DNA of 64,000 nucleotides, taken from Streptomyces sp. MMG1121 (GTDB taxonomy: Bacteria > Actinomycetota > Actinomycetes > Streptomycetales > Streptomycetaceae). A program made the position numbers and the translations under genes. Of this stretch, positions 13,882 to 59,682 are shown piece by piece. Position 1 is the stretch's first letter. Every line of letters begins with the position of its first letter. The DNA is taken from positions 62,001-126,000 of the forward strand of contig NZ_LGDV01000186.1 of NCBI RefSeq assembly GCF_001280015.1, given 5' to 3'. The notes under the pieces were generated by a model, which saw only the letters and a list, made by a program, of their open reading frames with translations, made no database searches and was not told where the DNA came from.

Positions 13882-14219
13882 GCGGTGCCCGCCCGGCCCG
13901 TGCCGCGCCCCGGCCCACGGCGCCCCGCACCCGCGGCTCCGGCGACCGCACCCGCCTGGCGCAGCGACCGGGACGGACCCGGCGACGCCCGGGAGCCGGC
14001 GCCCGTACCGCCGGCCGGTCGCACCGCCGGCGCCCTCCGGACGAACCTGGCGGGCCTCGGGCCCGGCACCCGCACGGCCCCCCGATCGCGCCCACGCCGC
14101 CACTTGACCGCGCCCGCACCGGCCCCGCGCGACACCCGTGCCGGCGGCCCCGGCCCGGGCACCGCGTCGCCGGGCGCCCGCAGGTCACCCAGGAGAGCCC
14201 GGGCACGTACCATGGCCGC
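13882..14219. other. intergenic spacer with no recognisable gene
   Basis: 338 bp of extremely GC-rich, Arg/Pro/Gly-rich reading frames on both strands. None resembles a protein family. The last 20 bases hold the TACCAT -10-like element of the next gene. No convincing hairpin, repeat or RNA gene was found. Confidence 0.6.
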
Positions 14220-47084: not shown

Positions 47085-47580
47085 GCAGGCACGGGCGGGG
47101 GCGGGCCCCCCCCCCGGGACCGCCCCCCCCGCTCCCTTCTCCCTTTTTCCCTCTCCCGCCACCCCCCCGGGGTGCTCTTTTCCCCCCTGCCCGCGCCGAC
47201 CCAACCCCGCCGATGACGATGTTGTTGATGATCACGCCCTTGTCGGGGCCGCTGCCCACGATCCAGGGAGCGATGATCAACCAGATGCCCATGGCGCACA
47301 TGGCCCAGCTGAGGCCGTACATCCGCTCGGGAGCCCTGGTGAAACCGAGTGCCAGCAGGCCTATCGCTATGCCCAGGATCAGGTTGTGGGCCATGAGCGC
47401 GGGCTGGCTCGTCGCGTAGTGCACGATCCACGGAGATGCCGCGCAGTACAGACCGAGCAGGAAGACCGGCCCGTCCACTAGTGCGACATCGCGACCGCCG
47501 AGCATGCGGGCGTAGCGGTCCCGCATTTCGGAGACATCGGGGTGAGTCATCATATCACCCCTGTGCGAGACGTTGGCCAT
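47020..47580 (-). CDS. SPW-repeat membrane protein with aberrant 3' end
   Basis: Integral membrane protein with two SPW repeats: SPWIVHYATSQPALMAHNLI, then MCAMGIWLIIAPWIVGSGPD, after an N-terminal MTHPDVSEMRDRYARM. Family members have four helices; function is unknown. After IINNIVIGGVGS the frame enters the homopolymer stretch and continues as a Gly/Arg/Pro-rich tail, even overlapping the ArsR-SRPBCC gene. That tail is not a family feature, so the real gene probably ends differently near 47200. GGAG 7 nt before ATG 47580. About 125 residues (47206-47580) can be trusted. Confidence 0.7.
   Translation of the reverse strand: MANVSHRGDMMTHPDVSEMRDRYARMLGGRDVALVDGPVFLLGLYCAASPWIVHYATSQPALMAHNLILGIAIGLLALGFTRAPERMYGLSWAMCAMGIWLIIAPWIVGSGPDKGVIINNIVIGGVGSARAGGKRAPRGGGGRGKKGEGSGGGGPGGGARPRPCLLSGPAPATAPAAASARSPAAT
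47085..47205. other. homopolymer-rich low-complexity stretch (suspected assembly or sequencing fault)
   Basis: Runs of C and T such as eleven and nine C, five T, seven C and six C in a row occur within 120 bases, unlike anything else in the window. The stretch lies just after the ArsR-SRPBCC stop and replaces the expected 3' part of the SPW gene. Natural streptomycete intergenic DNA seldom looks like this. Confidence 0.7.
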
Positions 47581-47819
47581 GACTCGTCTCCTTTGACTTC
47601 GCAGGCCAGACGGCGTCTGGTGCGGTGTGAGATAAGCACCGCTTGCTTCCAGTTTGCTCTTATTTCTTCTTTATGTGTAGACCTGTCCCGCGCCGGCCCC
47701 GGCCCAGGACGCCGGTCGCCGCTCCGATGTCCGGCCCCCTGGTCGTAGACCGTGCTCCGGAGGCCGCCCCGCCGTCAGTTCCCGGGCCCGGTGCGCGAAA
47801 GCCGTGTGCGGGTCCCGCG

Positions 47820-48193
47820 CCGCCCGCGGTACCGAGTCCGGAGCATCAGCAGTGCCCGGGACGCGTCGTCCACCAGTGGCCGGGAGGTGATCAGGCCGGG
47901 CCGCTCCAACGGATCCCGGGTGACGCCGGCGTCCGGCAGCGCCGTCGCCCCGAGCCCCTCGGCTCGCCCCCCTCTGCGCCGTCCACGCGGCGCCCGCGGG
48001 TACGTCGTCCTCGCCCAGATGGTTGACCAGCCGGCACGCTCACGACGGGCGGCAGCCGCTCCCGGCCCGGCGCGGACCGCTTCCGCTCCAGCAGGTCGAC
48101 GCCTGGTCCCCGTTCCGGATTCCGCACGGTCTCGCTCAACGCGGGCTGGGGCAGGCGCAGTTCGCCGCCGGCCCGGCGCAGCGGACCGAGCCG
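47820..48193 (-). pseudogene. LysR-family regulator remnant, middle missing
   Basis: Minus-strand reading shows part of a LysR HTH, GELRLPQPALSETVRNPERG followed by GVDLLERKRSA (48166-48070), and in another frame a LysR-like C-terminus GLGATALPDAGVTRDPLERP, LVDDASRALLML (47965-47820). About 100 bases separate them instead of the ~600 expected, so the effector-binding domain is lost and the frame is broken. No start codon with a proper LysR N-terminus is seen. Its place, divergent from the sfnG remnant, suggests it once regulated the sulfur genes. Confidence 0.6.
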
Positions 48194-48332
48194 GGTCGCG
48201 GCCGCAGGGCATGCCGGCCGCTCGGGCCGCACCGCCGCGGAATGCGGGGCCCGCCGGATCCGGTTCAAGGGGTTTCCTGTCACGCCTTCGTGAAATTCGC
48301 TGGTCCGCGATACGAGACCGGCCGGGTTTTCC

Positions 48333-48362
48333 TTGACGGTCCTCGCGGGCGGCTGCCACGAT
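48333..48362 (+). promoter_or_regulatory. promoter of the sulfur-locus leader peptide
   Basis: TTGACG and CACGAT with an 18-nt spacer; the -10 box ends 7 nt before the leader ATG at 48370, so the leader would be translated from a leaderless mRNA. Confidence 0.4.
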
Positions 48363-48369
48363 CGGCGGC

Positions 48370-48453
48370 ATGACGATGCGACTGGACCTCACGCGGCGAC
48401 GCCATGTCGACCTCGCGCGTGTCTCCAGCGCCTCCTGTCGCGCCGCGGCCTGA
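48370..48453 (+). CDS. leader peptide of sulfur-scavenging operon
   Basis: 27-codon ORF: MTMRLDLTRRRHVDLARVSS followed by ASCRAAA and TGA. The pattern (basic start, RRRHVDL.R, SA/S.CR near the end) is that of the small actinobacterial leader peptides found upstream of sulfur-uptake and sulfonate genes, whose Cys codon is thought to sense cysteinyl-tRNA supply and thereby control the downstream genes. It lies 131 nt before the sfnG remnant start. A second in-frame ATG at 48376 is possible. Unlike the enzyme genes after it, this ORF looks intact. Too short for normal gene calling. Confidence 0.72.
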   Translation: MTMRLDLTRRRHVDLARVSSASCRAAA

Positions 48454-48584
48454 CCGCCCCACCTGCTCCGATCCGCCGCGCTCCGCTCCGCTCCGGCACC
48501 GTCTGAATTACCCGGCACTTTCCCGCGCGTGGAATTCGGCATGCCCGGAAACATCACCGAGCAATTCCGCACCAGGAGTTCCGG

Positions 48585-48921
48585 ATGCCCGCAACGCCCG
48601 TGAAATCCGCCCACTGGGTCCCCAAGGTCAGCGGGGGACTTGTCACCAGCACGATCGAGCAGCGCACCGACCGGGAATACGCCGACGGCCGGCAACCGGC
48701 CGTCCGCGCCGAGCACAACGGGCTCGACCACGCCCTCGGTCAGGTCCGGTACGTGGCCGGTTGCGGCGCCGCATGCCGGGGCGGCCGCTTCGCCGTGCAC
48801 GTCGTATCGGGCCGGTCGAACGGCGAGTGCACGGCGCTCGGCGAGCGTCGGCTGGAACACGACGAACGACACCGCCGCTCTGAGGAGTTCATCATCGCCC
48901 CGCGGACGATCCGGACCGACG
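48585..48921 (+). pseudogene. sfnG: sfnG (dimethylsulfone monooxygenase) remnant with in-frame internal deletion
   Basis: FMNH2-dependent LLM-type sulfone monooxygenase remnant. AGGAG 6 nt before ATG 48585 and the start MPATPVKSAHWVPKVSGGLV, STIEQRTDREYADGRQ are well preserved (WVPNVSGGLV.STIEQRTD in SfnG). LDHALGQVRYVAGCGAACRG then jumps in frame to GRFAVHVVSGRSNGECTALG, ERRLEHDERHRRSEEFI, which in the family follows about 45 residues later. After ~112 residues homology stops where the FMN reductase part begins in another frame. About two thirds of the enzyme, including the barrel's C-terminal half, is missing. Confidence 0.75.
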
Positions 48922-49257
48922 TCCGTGCCGAACTCGCCGGTGACGTACTCCGGTGTGCTCAAGGCGCTGCTCGACCTGATCCCTCAGTGCGCGCTCACCG
49001 GCAAGACCGTATTGCCGCTCGCCACCGGTGGCTCCACCGCACATGTCCTCGCCATCGACTACGCGCTGCGCCCGGTGCTGAACTCCATGGGTGCTGCCCA
49101 CATAGTCCAGGGCTGGTTCACCCTCGACAAGGACATCACCGTACGCGAGGACGGCTCGCTGGCCCTCGCCCCGGCCACCGCCGAGGCGCTCGGCCAGGGG
49201 GTGGACCAGTTCTCGGCCGCCCTCGGCCGGACCCCGGTCCTCGCGGCGACGAGCTGA
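48922..49257 (+). pseudogene. NADPH-dependent FMN reductase (MsuE/SsuE-type), C-terminal half only
   Basis: C-terminal half of a flavodoxin-like FMN reductase that supplies FMNH2 to SsuD/SfnG. Clear family sequence: VTYSGVLKALLDLIPQCALT, GKTVLPLATGGSTAHVLAID, YALRPVLNSMGAAHIVQGWF, TLDKDITVREDGSLALAPAT, EALGQGVDQFSAAL. The N-terminal ~75 residues, with the FMN phosphate loop, are absent; the fragment is joined out of frame to the sfnG remnant and has no start of its own. TGA at 49255-49257. Confidence 0.8.
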
Positions 49258-49265
49258 ACGGCTCC

Positions 49266-49690
49266 ATGACCGCGCACGTCATCGCGGACGACACCGAGGC
49301 ACTCGGCGTCGCGGCGGCACCGGCCACGGATTCCACGCCGGGGCCGCCGAGCAGGACGCCGAACGCCGGTCAGCCCGGGCCGAGTTGGACCGGTTGTCCC
49401 GCTCCGGGCTGCTCGCCGTGACCGTGCCCGCCGAAGCCCGCCGAACACGGCGGAGCCGACGCCGCGCCGCGACCCCCGCAGAAATCCTCCGGCCGCCACA
49501 CGTGCAGGACATCGGCCCCCGCCCACCCGTTGCCCGCCCGCCACCGCTCGACGAGGCGCTTCGCACCGCACCTTTCCCCGCCCCGCCCCGCCCCGGCCCG
49601 CCCGCTGGAAGATCCAGCACCTGGGCCGGTACGCGCTGACCGGAACCCGGCCGCCCCGCCACGGCCTGCTCCGACGCACGATCCCGAACG
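49266..49690 (+). pseudogene. sfnB: sfnB (acyl-CoA dehydrogenase-like sulfur oxidoreductase), only both ends left
   Basis: SfnB-type flavoprotein remnant. ATG 49266 opens MTAHVIADDTEALGVAAAPA; a frameshift then leads to GAAEQDAERRSARAELDRLS, RSGLLAVTVPAE, and a 10-nt tandem duplication (CCCGCCGAAG, 49426-49445) shifts the frame again before AEHGGAD. After ~130 bases of unassignable sequence the family C-terminus reappears: RWKIQHLGRYALTGTRPPRH, GLLRRT (49603-49680). The flavin and substrate domains, about 300 residues, are gone. Confidence 0.7.
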
Positions 49691-49700
49691 GAGACCCCAC

Positions 49701-50843
49701 GTGTCCCTCACCTTCCACTGGTTCCTGCCCACCAACGGCGACAGCCGTCACGTCGTCGGCGGCGGCCACGGCACCCCGGCGACCGCATCCGGCCGGGACC
49801 GGCCGCCCACGGTCGCCTATCTGAGCCAGATCGCCCGGGCCGCCGAGTTCCTCGGCTTCGCCGGCGCGCTCACCCCGACCGGGGCCTGGTGCGAGGACGC
49901 GTGGCTGACCACCGCCATGGTCAGCCAGAACTCCGAGCGGCTGAAGTTCCTGGTCGCCTTCCGGCCCGGCTCCGTCTCGCCGACGCTCGCCGCGCAGATG
50001 GCGTCCACCTTCCAGCGGCAGACCGGCGGACGGCTGCTGCTCAACGTCGTCACCGGCGGCGAGAACCACGAGCAGCGGGCCTACGGCGACTTCCTCGACA
50101 AGGACGCCCGCTACCGCCGTACCGGCGAATTCCTGCACATCGTGCGCCAGTTGTGGGACGGCAAGAGCGTCGACCTGCACGGCGAGCACCTGCGGGTCGA
50201 GGAGGCGAAGCTCAGCCGGGTGCCCGACCCCGTGCCCGAGGTGTACTTCGGCGGCTCCTCGCCCGCCGCAGGCGAGGTCGCGGCCCGGTACGCCGACGTG
50301 TACCTCACCTGGGGCGAGCCGCCTGCCCAGGTCGCCGAGAAGATCGCCTGGATCCGCGGGCTGGCCGCGGAGCACGGACGTACGCTGCGCTTCGGCATCC
50401 GGCTGCACGTCATCACCCGGGACACCGCCGCCGAGGCCTGGGCGGAGGCGGACCGGCTGCTCGACGGCTTCGATCCGGAGACGGTGCGGGCCGTGCAGGC
50501 GGGGCTCGCCCGCAGCGAGTCCGAGGGCCAGCAGCGGATGCTCGCCCTGCACGGCGGCAGCCGGGAGAGCCTGGAGATCCACCCCAACCTGTGGGCCGGC
50601 ATCGGGCTGGTGCGCGGCGGCGCGGGCACGGCGCTGGTCGGCAGCCACGACGAGGTCGTGGAGCGGATCAAGGAGTACCACGCCCTCGGCATCGACGAGT
50701 TCGTCCTCTCCGGCTACCCGCATCTGGAGGAGGCGTACTGGTTCGGCGAGGGCGTGCTGCCCCGGCTCGCCGCACAGGGACTGTGGACACATCCCGCCAG
50801 CCACGCGTCCGCTGCCCCGGCCCAGGTACCGTTCGCGGGCTGA
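49701..50843 (+). CDS. ssuD: FMNH2-dependent alkanesulfonate monooxygenase
   Basis: 380-residue LLM-class monooxygenase cleaving alkanesulfonates to aldehyde and sulfite when sulfate is scarce; needs reduced FMN from a partner reductase. Starts VSLTFHWFLPTNGDSRHVVG; then EFLGFAGALTPTGAWCEDAW, LKFLVAFRPGSVSPTLAAQM, RLLLNVVTGGENHEQRAYGD, YFGGSSPAAGEVAARYADVY and VGSHDEVVERIKEYHALGID, all SsuD landmarks including the flavin-contact Cys region. Full length and without defects, unlike every other gene of the locus. GTG at 49701 with GGAG 7 nt upstream. Its own reductase gene is broken, so activity would need FMNH2 from elsewhere. Confidence 0.92.
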   Translation: MSLTFHWFLPTNGDSRHVVGGGHGTPATASGRDRPPTVAYLSQIARAAEFLGFAGALTPTGAWCEDAWLTTAMVSQNSERLKFLVAFRPGSVSPTLAAQMASTFQRQTGGRLLLNVVTGGENHEQRAYGDFLDKDARYRRTGEFLHIVRQLWDGKSVDLHGEHLRVEEAKLSRVPDPVPEVYFGGSSPAAGEVAARYADVYLTWGEPPAQVAEKIAWIRGLAAEHGRTLRFGIRLHVITRDTAAEAWAEADRLLDGFDPETVRAVQAGLARSESEGQQRMLALHGGSRESLEIHPNLWAGIGLVRGGAGTALVGSHDEVVERIKEYHALGIDEFVLSGYPHLEEAYWFGEGVLPRLAAQGLWTHPASHASAAPAQVPFAG

Positions 50844-50876: not shown

Positions 50877-51322
50877 GACTACTCCGCCGCGCCGACGCCG
50901 GTCGTGGCCCCGAACCGGGCGGTCGCGGTGGCCGAGGCCGAGGGGCCGGGCCGGGCGCTCGACCTGGTCGACGCGCCGGGCCTCGGCCGCTACCACGTGC
51001 TGCACGCCGTCCGCGCCGACCTGCTGCGCCGGCTGGGCCGGTCCGTCGAGGCGGCGACGGAGTACGGCCTGGCCGCCCCCGGTCGTGGCCCCGAACCGGG
51101 CGGTCGCGGTGGCCGAGGCCGAGGGGCCGGGCCGGACGCTCGACCTGGTCGACGCGCCGGGCCTCGGCCGCTACCACGTGCTGCACCGTCCGCGCCGACC
51201 TGCTGCGCCGGCTGGGCCGGTCCGCCGGGGCGGCGACGGAGTACGGCCTGGCCGCCGGACGGGCCGGGAGCGCGGCCGAACGGGCGTATCTGGAGCGGCG
51301 CCTGCGTGACCTCGGCCTGTGA
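50877..51322 (+). pseudogene. ECF sigma factor C-terminus, tandemly duplicated remnant
   Basis: The sequence reads DYSAAPTPVVAPNRAVAVAE, LVDAPGLGRYHVLHAVRADL, LRRLGRSVEAATEYGLAA, the helical C-terminal extension of the DUF6596-type ECF sigma factors (normally NPVVALNRAVAVAE...YHLLHAVRADLLRRLGR). No sigma-2 or sigma-4 region is present. The segment occurs twice, 181 nt apart, in different frames, and the second copy carries a 2-nt deletion before ending AAERAYLERRLRDLGL and TGA at 51322. Cannot be functional as a sigma factor. Confidence 0.72.
50898..51257 (+). repeat. 181-bp direct tandem repeat
   Basis: Copy 1 50898-51078 and copy 2 51079-51257 are nearly identical (few substitutions, one 2-nt deletion near 51186). 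The period of 181 is not a multiple of 3, so the duplication itself shifts the reading frame. Confidence 0.9.
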
Positions 51323-52767: not shown

Positions 52768-52807
52768 TCCGGTTGCGTGGCGGCCCGGATGTGCGAAGAT
52801 CCGCCGG

Positions 52808-57395: not shown

Positions 57396-57574
57396 AAGGA
57401 CCACCATCGCGCATCCACCGCCGTCATGCCTCCGAAATCCGGCCGCCGTGCAAGCCCGGCGGCACGCGTCTCCGGCTCGCCGGTGAAGTCCTGCGCCGCG
57501 AGGACCTCTTGCGGGGCGGGTGCTCTCATGACCTGTTCCCCCTGAACCGTCGCCGTAGTGGCTGACGGCCCCCA

Positions 57575-58489
57575 TCAGGAGGCCTGGGGCTCCTCCCGGG
57601 ACGGTCCCAGCTCCCCCGTCTCCAGGAGGGTGACGAGCGCGCGGGCGGCGGGGCTCGTGGACCGGTCCGGCGGCAGCAGGGCCACCGTCTCGTACTCCGT
57701 CTCGCCCGTCCCCTTCAGCGGGAGCGCCGCGAGCGAGGGCCGCTTGTGCCGGAAGTGCCGGGGAACGACGGCGATCCCCAGGTTCTCGTCCACCAGGTCC
57801 AGGAGGCTGTGCACGTCGTTCACCTCCAGCGCGACCGTGCGCCGTACCCCGGCCGTGGTGAACGCGGCGTCGGTCGTGCGCCGCGGGCCCCAGTCCGGAT
57901 GGAAGTCGACGAAGACCTCCCCGGCCAGATCCCCGGGGGTGAGCACCGCGCCCGCCGAGGCCAGCCGGTGGCCGGGATGGCACAGCACGGTCATCGGCTC
58001 GCTCGTGAGCGCCACCGAGCGCAGCTGGTCGCTGTCCGCCTGGGTGCGGTAGGCGAAGGCGAGGTCGAGCCGGCCGGCCGCGACCTCCTCGGCCAGCGCG
58101 CCCGAACCCGCCTGCCGCAGCCGGATCTCCACGTCCGGATGCCGCCCCCGGAACGCGGCCAGCAGTCGTGCCGGGTGCACGCCCGCGATGCACTGCTCGG
58201 TACCCAGTGCCAGCGTGCCGCGCAGCACGCCCTGCACCGCCGCCACCGCCTCGTGCGCCGAGCGCACCTGCGCCAGGATCCGCTCGGCCTCCGCCAGCAG
58301 CGCGTGCCCCGCCTCGGTCAGCGTCACCCGCCGGGTGGTCCGCACGAACAGCGGCGCCCGCAGCTCCCGTTCCAGCGCCCTGATCGACGCCGACAAGCCC
58401 GACTGGGACACCATCAGGCGTTCGGCGGCCCGGGTGAAATGCTGGTCCTCGGCGACCGCGACGAAGTGCTGGAGATGACGCAGTTCCAT
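57575..58489 (-). CDS. LysR-family transcriptional regulator
   Basis: 304-residue LysR regulator. HTH MELRHLQHFVAVAEDQHFTR, AAERLMVSQSGLSASIRALE, FVRTTRRVTLTEAGHALLAE, then the effector-binding domain (LALGTEQCIAGVHPARLLAA, ... LVDENLGIAVVPRHFRHKRP). Ligand unknown. Divergent from an aldo/keto reductase that starts 111 nt away and is its likely target. No Shine-Dalgarno; the ATG at 58489 begins the conserved N-terminus. Confidence 0.93.
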   Translation of the reverse strand: MELRHLQHFVAVAEDQHFTRAAERLMVSQSGLSASIRALERELRAPLFVRTTRRVTLTEAGHALLAEAERILAQVRSAHEAVAAVQGVLRGTLALGTEQCIAGVHPARLLAAFRGRHPDVEIRLRQAGSGALAEEVAAGRLDLAFAYRTQADSDQLRSVALTSEPMTVLCHPGHRLASAGAVLTPGDLAGEVFVDFHPDWGPRRTTDAAFTTAGVRRTVALEVNDVHSLLDLVDENLGIAVVPRHFRHKRPSLAALPLKGTGETEYETVALLPPDRSTSPAARALVTLLETGELGPSREEPQAS

Positions 58490-59593: not shown

Positions 59594-59609
59594 GCCCGCC
59601 GGGCGAGGA

Positions 59610-59682
59610 GAGCGGCGGTCAGGAGGCGAGCGGCGGTCAGGGCGTGAGCGGGCGGTCAGGGCGTGAGCCGCGGTCAGGAGGT
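59610..59682. repeat. four-unit 18-19-bp tandem repeat at convergent gene ends
   Basis: Units GAGCGGCGGTCAGGAGGC (59610), GAGCGGCGGTCAGGGCGT (59628), GAGCGGGCGGTCAGGGCGT (59646) and GAGCCGCGGTCAGGAGGT (59665). The last unit includes the SDR stop codon (59674-59676, read on the minus strand), so the repeat looks like serial copying of that gene's final codons. Confidence 0.85.

Follow-up and report, generated by a model that had tools for sequence, protein, structure and literature searches.

Apparent stepwise erosion of an operon for sulfone and sulfonate assimilation in Streptomyces sp. MMG1121

The 64,000-nucleotide stretch of DNA analysed here, which we call the window, comes from Streptomyces sp. 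MMG1121 (9.45-Mb genome assembled into 272 contigs; NCBI RefSeq assembly GCF_001280015.1, contig NZ_LGDV01000186.1, positions 62,001 to 126,000 of the forward strand) and contains, at 47820..50843, the remnants of an operon for sulfone and sulfonate assimilation. In relatives, of which the named ones nearest to the window are Streptomyces, the block consists of a LysR regulator gene on the minus strand followed on the plus strand by a short leader open reading frame (ORF), sfnG, a flavin mononucleotide (FMN) reductase gene, sfnB, and ssuD; some relatives carry an extra gene between sfnG and the reductase gene, which from its translation is putatively acyl-CoA-dehydrogenase-like. A sequence-only reading had placed pieces of LysR, SfnG, the FMN reductase, and SfnB in this expected order ahead of a complete ssuD, and tblastn searches with the intact proteins of one related locus, L038, bore this out. 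The features are as follows.

47764..47963, minus strand: C-terminal remnant of the LysR regulator gene (tblastn matches to LysR 249-292 and 295-319; blastn matches to relatives stop at 47963)
48035..48283, minus strand: N-terminal (helix-turn-helix) remnant of the LysR regulator gene (tblastn match to LysR 1-88, E 3e-25)
48370..48453, plus strand: short leader ORF of 27 amino acids, C-terminus ..SSASCRAAA (NCBIfam NF042934; same ORF in relatives)
48585..48771, plus strand: 5′ remnant of sfnG (dimethylsulfone monooxygenase), aligned to intact sfnG
48780..48943, plus strand: second sfnG remnant, in frame with the first past a 132-base deletion, aligned to intact sfnG
48944..48946, no strand: sfnG/reductase deletion junction (2174 bases absent relative to genome G141)
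48946..49257, plus strand: 3′ half of the FMN reductase gene (SsuE/MsuE), including the stop codon (MsuE 76-184, 81%; Pfam FMN_red)
49266..49496, plus strand: 5′ remnant of sfnB, frameshifted (tblastn and alignment to relatives)
49597..49671, plus strand: 3′ remnant of sfnB, last 25 codons (tblastn match to SfnB 371-395, 84%)
49701..50843, plus strand: ssuD (FMNH2-dependent alkanesulfonate monooxygenase-like), intact, 380 amino acids (best NCBIfam matches are SsuD models)
50886..51322, plus strand: C-terminal stub of an extracytoplasmic function (ECF) sigma factor gene with a partial tandem duplication (repeats; tblastn matches to residues 324-386 and 364-405 of the G170 sigma factor)

With the L038 proteins as queries, LysR residues 1-88 matched window positions 48283-48035, residues 249-292 matched 47963-47832, and residues 295-319 matched 47838-47764; SfnG residues from about 5 to 188 matched 48564-48983 with a gap; reductase residues 76-184 matched 48928-49254 (81%); SfnB residues 24-58 and 371-395 matched 49331-49435 and 49597-49671 (the latter at 84%); and SsuD residues 1-380 matched 49701-50837 as a whole. 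The similarity of the pieces cannot be ascribed to chance because the best E-values were 3e-25 for LysR, 8e-41 for SfnG, 5e-55 for the reductase, and 2e-11 for SfnB. This comparison with an intact locus had been proposed beforehand as a check on the family assignments, and the searches and alignments agreed with the description given earlier: LysR retains its helix-turn-helix and C-terminus, SfnG a start followed by an in-frame jump, the reductase its second half, and SfnB its two ends. Relative to intact orthologs, the coding frames of LysR, sfnG, the reductase gene, and sfnB are all disrupted, as in pseudogenes.

The in-frame jump in sfnG corresponds to the 132-base deletion at 48771/48780. 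The gene then ends at about codon 188 and the reductase begins at about codon 78, with Pfam FMN_red matched only at positions 84-150 of 152. A single deletion (junction 48943-48946) accounts for both the missing 3′ end of sfnG and the missing first half of the reductase gene, and amounts to 2174 bases relative to G141 or 936 bases relative to G011, which is without the extra gene there. Four neighbouring genes are thus broken, as had been claimed, but the supposition of a separate internal deletion in each fails because sfnG and the reductase gene share this one.

In family tests, intact L038 SfnG and SfnB scored 632 bits on TIGR04021 (cut-off 383) and 558 bits on TIGR04022 (cut-off 431); the window has remnants of both. 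The L038 reductase scored 229 bits on the SsuE model TIGR03567 (cut-off 164) and 92 bits on the MsuE model (cut-off 212.5), so that this test, in which only the SsuE cut-off was passed, assigns it to SsuE and not to MsuE. Window SsuD scored 463 bits on TIGR03565, below the curated cut-off of 518.2, as did relatives L038, L058, and L165 (463-471 bits). Among NCBIfam models it matches those for SsuD best (463-473 bits, again below cut-offs, as in these three relatives), and on that strength we call the product SsuD-like. From their families, SfnG in intact relatives would oxidise dimethyl sulfone, SfnB would act on a product of that step, SsuD would free sulfite from sulfonates, and the FMN reductase would supply all three. 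The corresponding Pseudomonas genes are sfnFG, msuEDC, and ssuEADCBF (PMC13352529). The Streptomyces system resembles these in that an intact relative belongs to the SfnG, SfnB, and SsuE families and window ssuD matches SsuD best. It differs in that the genes form one block preceded by a cysteine-containing leader ORF and a divergent LysR gene, and the window is whole only for ssuD.

We conclude, with a probability of about 0.9, that the locus records real, stepwise decay of the operon. Selection on the sulfone part would have lapsed, after which sfnG and probably LysR would have lost function first and drifted, followed by sfnB and last by the 5′ half of the reductase gene, and the strain would have lost the corresponding phenotype. 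Successive deletions would have cleared the dead DNA, and those entering genes still under selection would have been purged, so that the middle of a dead stretch would tend to disappear and its edges to survive. What remains whole in the window is the leader ORF and ssuD.

Multiple results support this conclusion. First, the window remnants map in order onto the intact operons of relatives. Second, the remnants have drifted. At sites where three close intact relatives agree, changes on the window lineage at codon positions 1/2/3 occurred at flat rates in the LysR pieces (.134/.177/.134) and SfnG pieces (.138/.134/.125), at partly flat rates in SfnB (.069/.144/.185), and at coding-like rates in the reductase half (.055/.021/.125) and SsuD (.008/.011/.046). 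Branch models of ω, the ratio of nonsynonymous to synonymous substitution, ranked the genes nearly as these rates did. For LysR, ω on the window branch was 0.61 versus a background of 0.134, with equality rejected (likelihood-ratio test statistic, LRT, 21.4) and neutrality not rejected (1.9). The corresponding values were 0.21 versus 0.049 for SfnG (LRT 16.1), 0.14 versus 0.050 for SfnB (LRT 6.4), 0.064 versus 0.051 for the reductase (LRT 0.1), and 0.067 versus 0.046 for SsuD (LRT 1.0). On a control branch, L058, ω was 0.163 for LysR, 0.019 for SfnG, 0.041 for SfnB, and 0.041 for the reductase, none above background by test, and only SsuD was raised (0.093, LRT 4.3). Relaxed constraint, another mark of pseudogenes, was therefore found for LysR, SfnG, and SfnB and not for the reductase half, which we read as a sign of recent loss. 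Where LysR and sfnG are dead (47832-48943), their substitutions lean to G/C, T>C and A>G together making up 21/46 and 19/41; bacterial mutation is generally held to lean to A and T.

Third, the genes appear to have decayed at different times. Genome G326 (locus L175), one of the two rows nearest to the window, has its own broken copy of sfnG, and at 61 comparable sites in the sfnG remnants seven derived changes are common to the window and G326, four are found in the window only, and one in G326 only. The reductase has four such common changes at 264 sites, and sfnG was thus probably free of constraint already in the common ancestor of the two. LysR was probably also unconstrained before that split, which is less clear from five common changes at 139 sites of its C-terminus; sfnB has three at 65 sites. 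The reductase deletion is probably younger than the decay of sfnG because G326 and G267, the other nearest row, keep the whole reductase gene. The likely order of loss is sfnG and probably LysR first, then sfnB, and the reductase last. The operon has indeed collapsed, as the sequence-only reading had suggested among its explanations, but apparently stepwise, and its description as recent suits the reductase rather than sfnG and, probably, LysR, both unconstrained before the split from G326.

Fourth, loss of the same genes is common among related loci. We took as 80 named loci those nearest by SsuD (the best 80 of at least 586 relatives, in at least 597 stretches) and added loci picked from matches that were nearly all to the reductase half. 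Of 198 loci including the window, 14 were dropped because no complete ssuD reached 70% identity and a further 21 because of identical ssuD, leaving 163. A gene was scored intact when a single open match covered at least 88% of the reference, and the state of sfnG in the window was assigned by hand, the automatic cut-off having missed the remnant. Every locus had to hold ssuD, and its presence across the series thus reflects choice. State changes were counted on the ssuD tree alone, where loss and gain cannot be separated, though remnants show loss. By this scoring, 100 loci had an intact sfnB, 21 had a remnant, 41 had none, and 1 was unscored (lost or broken in 62/162; at least 32 changes); sfnG was intact in 81, a remnant in 16, absent in 58, and unscored in 8 (74/155; at least 37 changes); and LysR was intact in 85, a remnant in 12, absent in 37, and unscored in 29 (at least 34 changes). 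The reductase gene, which the choice of added loci favours, was intact in 155, a remnant in 3, absent in 2, and unscored in 3 (at least 5 changes). Among the 80 named loci, sfnB was intact in 44, a remnant in 13, and absent in 23, and the reductase gene was intact in 76 of 78 scored.

Several stages of erosion coexist in this set. Frameshifted sfnG in L066 and L068 represents an early stage, and sfnB with both ends left in L067, L082, L125, and the window a middle one. G170 (L165 3209-3649) has an in-frame fusion of roughly 44 codons from the start of sfnG with codons 72-184 of the reductase gene, open over 146 amino acids; its LysR gene is also disrupted, and its sfnB and ssuD are whole. In L116 (Streptomyces sp. 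SA15), LysR, sfnG, the reductase gene, and sfnB were not found, and the leader begins about 260 bases ahead of ssuD. The last gene is also being lost in G279 (L176), where ssuD is without its first 244 residues, keeps residues 245-380, and adjoins an sfnB remnant.

Finally, the shape of the remnants is that expected of random deletions barred from crossing into neighbouring genes. Across 16 broken sfnB copies including the window, retention in successive 40-residue bins was.41,.25,.09,.06,.09,.12,.14,.17,.33, and.54, peaking at the ends as in simulations of such confined deletions: with mean lengths of 300 and 600, the first bin was.36-.40, inside bins.06-.13, and the last bin.42-.44; with a mean length of 100, the values were.33,.10-.14, and.35. 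The pattern had been thought odd for ordinary decay, a judgement that does not survive this agreement or the finding of sfnB remnants in 16 of 106 loci (15 besides the window). Some 60 bases of the sfnB remnant (49515-49575) recur at other loci and in L052 lie twice, flanking the reductase gene. Common descent of this piece in the window and G033 was considered at first, but it also occurs in L052, L068, L089, L082, and L122, partly outside sfnB.

No repeat-driven mechanism is needed, and the earlier proposal that recombination between short repeated GC-rich words excised the gene middles seems to us very unlikely. The deletions are clustered, as it would predict, but the genes decayed at different times. 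Of 25 eroded loci, compared with 43 intact ones, 13 yielded 22 junctions in all, among them the one window junction clean enough to be entered. Median ambiguity at these junctions was 1 base; the mean, raised by two outliers, was 1.5, and the null mean 0.85. There was no ambiguity at 9/22 junctions and 1 base at the window's single countable junction. The outliers, with 5 and 13 ambiguous bases, would favour recombination at words, since about 3% of random pairs reach 4. The 13-base junction, in L078, has well-matching flanks (8/63 bases mismatched), but the 5-base junction sits on badly matching ones (26/65). By eye, a further deletion in the L175 sfnG remnant also falls at a 7-base word of an intact relative.

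The other mechanism raised beforehand, that the assembly dropped low-coverage, GC-rich segments from genes that are whole in the cell, is slightly less probable again. Several observations would fit it: the assembly is in 272 contigs; long C and G runs at 47088-47200, just past a gene end, are a possible sequencing weak spot; the best 120 of 3338 protein matches cover the reductase half only (52-53% of the query); and no match from another genome runs through the reductase junction among the matches listed (392 genomes of the genus). But the pieces carry a substitution load that dropped segments would not produce, the sfnG remnant of G326 has the seven derived changes in common with the window, sfnB remnants occur at the 15 other loci, and outside this locus the window and G170 are for the most part collinear. 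An artefact is thus unlikely for LysR, sfnG, and sfnB. Least probable of the three, retention of the remnants for a function, for instance as a spacer or a short fused reductase product, would accord with the open sfnG-reductase fusion of G170 and the unraised ω of the window reductase half, but the two deletions differ in end points, the coordinates of the window join put it out of frame, both versions lack the N-terminal half of the FMN_red domain, and 155/160 scored relatives, in a set partly chosen by reductase matches, have the whole gene.

Some results nevertheless weigh against stepwise decay as we describe it. An ω of 1 was rejected for the SfnG (LRT 16.6) and SfnB (LRT 23.3) remnants; we read this, given the flat SfnG rates, as the product of a functional early part of the branch and of a codon-frequency model ill-suited to dead genes. 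The rate in LysR and SfnG (~0.13) is about three times the third-position rate of ssuD (0.046) in the same lineage, which is not fully explained. The ssuD tree places the window with weak support (bootstrap 47; Shimodaira-Hasegawa-like approximate likelihood-ratio test 90 in another tree), and the window-specific reductase junction is present in one assembly only. Only 4/16 broken sfnB copies retain pieces of both ends; the majority retain one end, and L078 is counted as retaining the middle.

Within the decaying operon, ssuD remains under purifying selection. Where an alignment column is conserved in at least 98% of the other rows, window SsuD never departs from it, and the same holds for 49 further rows among the 106. 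A search of the genome found no second close SfnG, SfnB, or SsuE/MsuE and no second operon copy, and returned 12 FMN_red and 7 Flavin_Reduct matches as other flavin reductase candidates; a different reductase probably supplies window SsuD with FMNH2. In Pseudomonas and Acinetobacter, several monooxygenases are reported to depend on MsuE for their supply (PMC13352529). Losing one reductase could thus have wide effects unless it is replaced.

The leader ORF (48370-48453) scored 32 bits on NF042934, 'putative leader peptide' (cut-off 27). On the Cys-rich families Ms4527A and Ms5788A, which we take to be the same peptides as the attenuators of Canestrari et al. 2020, it scored 25.3 and 24.6 bits, below the cut-off of 45. 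It resembles the mycobacterial Cys-rich leaders in being a short ORF that precedes a sulfur operon, in having Cys codons toward its C-terminus, and in belonging to NF042934; unlike them, the window copy falls below the Ms4527A and Ms5788A cut-offs and has a single Cys. In M. smegmatis, small ORFs with contiguous Cys codons are reported to be cysteine-responsive attenuators (Canestrari et al., as cited in PMC9031893), and the mycobacterial attenuators are also cited in PMC13236596 (Canestrari et al. 2020). An S. lividans study (PMC8079986) treats eight leaders and gives none as Cys-dependent. Searches of the locus for a terminator-like site, a promoter/terminator scan, and an Rfam search found nothing, which speaks neither for nor against a putative cysteine-responsive attenuator.

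Most intact relatives have an adjacent Cys pair in the leader, which was found in 77/79 intact loci and 47/59 loci without sfnG and sfnB. Among loci with a leader, the pair was present in 57/77 intact versus 17/47 without sfnG and sfnB (Fisher 5.8e-5) or versus 29/63 when any loss was counted (Fisher 9.0e-4), the no-pair class also containing leaders with two or more non-adjacent Cys; a smaller, earlier set gave a Fisher value of 0.0013. With kinship allowed for, support was weak and mixed. Independent pairs on supported branches numbered 4.2 with the association versus 0.9 against (median p 0.29), 4.1 versus 1.3 for any loss (median p 0.45), and 3.2 versus 0.9 in the smaller set; a Pagel-type LRT of 11.9 (124 rows) was equalled by 1 of 60 parametric bootstraps. 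We treat the association only as a lead. It is possible, at odds well short of even, that the whole module usually goes with a Cys-Cys leader, that sfnG and sfnB are lost more readily behind a leader without the pair, and that a regulatory change precedes and prepares the loss; the window, with its single Cys and dead module, agrees with that idea.

Damage also extends past ssuD, and the earlier delimitation at 47820..50843 captured the broken locus without its full extent: compared with G170, the window lacks two genes downstream of ssuD, for an acyl-CoA dehydrogenase and a YCII protein, as well as most of the ECF sigma factor gene. The sigma-factor stub at 50886-51322 is tandemly duplicated with a 181-base step and copies 96-97% alike, apparently a fairly fresh event within dead DNA. 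Elsewhere the window and G170 are largely collinear. Of 56 crude gene calls in G170, 38 were matched in one piece at more than 90%; the remaining 18 include those of the sulfone locus and some wholly absent. Collinearity is interrupted at window positions 13882-14170, 52773-52790, 57504-57575, and 59598-59673, where G170 is longer by ~0.6-9.5 kb; these differences are unpolarised.

Decay of this operon is real, well explained, and ordinary in kind, since these genes are missing or broken in many relatives too. Operon decay by deletion-biased erosion of pseudogenes is a general phenomenon in bacteria, and the locus shares with it relaxed constraint followed by successive deletions, non-coding substitution patterns, and many losses in related lineages. 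It differs in presenting several stages at one locus in one genus and in an end-keeping pattern matched to confined deletions, with purging of deletions as the presumed cause. Among the entries listed, our literature search found no report of erosion at this locus, which is not proof that none exists. Apart from the possible leader link, the finding says little new about the biology of sulfur use. What the locus offers is a graded natural series of intact, partly eroded, and fully removed operon versions across the genus, which could be used to time gene decay and to test why eroded genes keep their ends.

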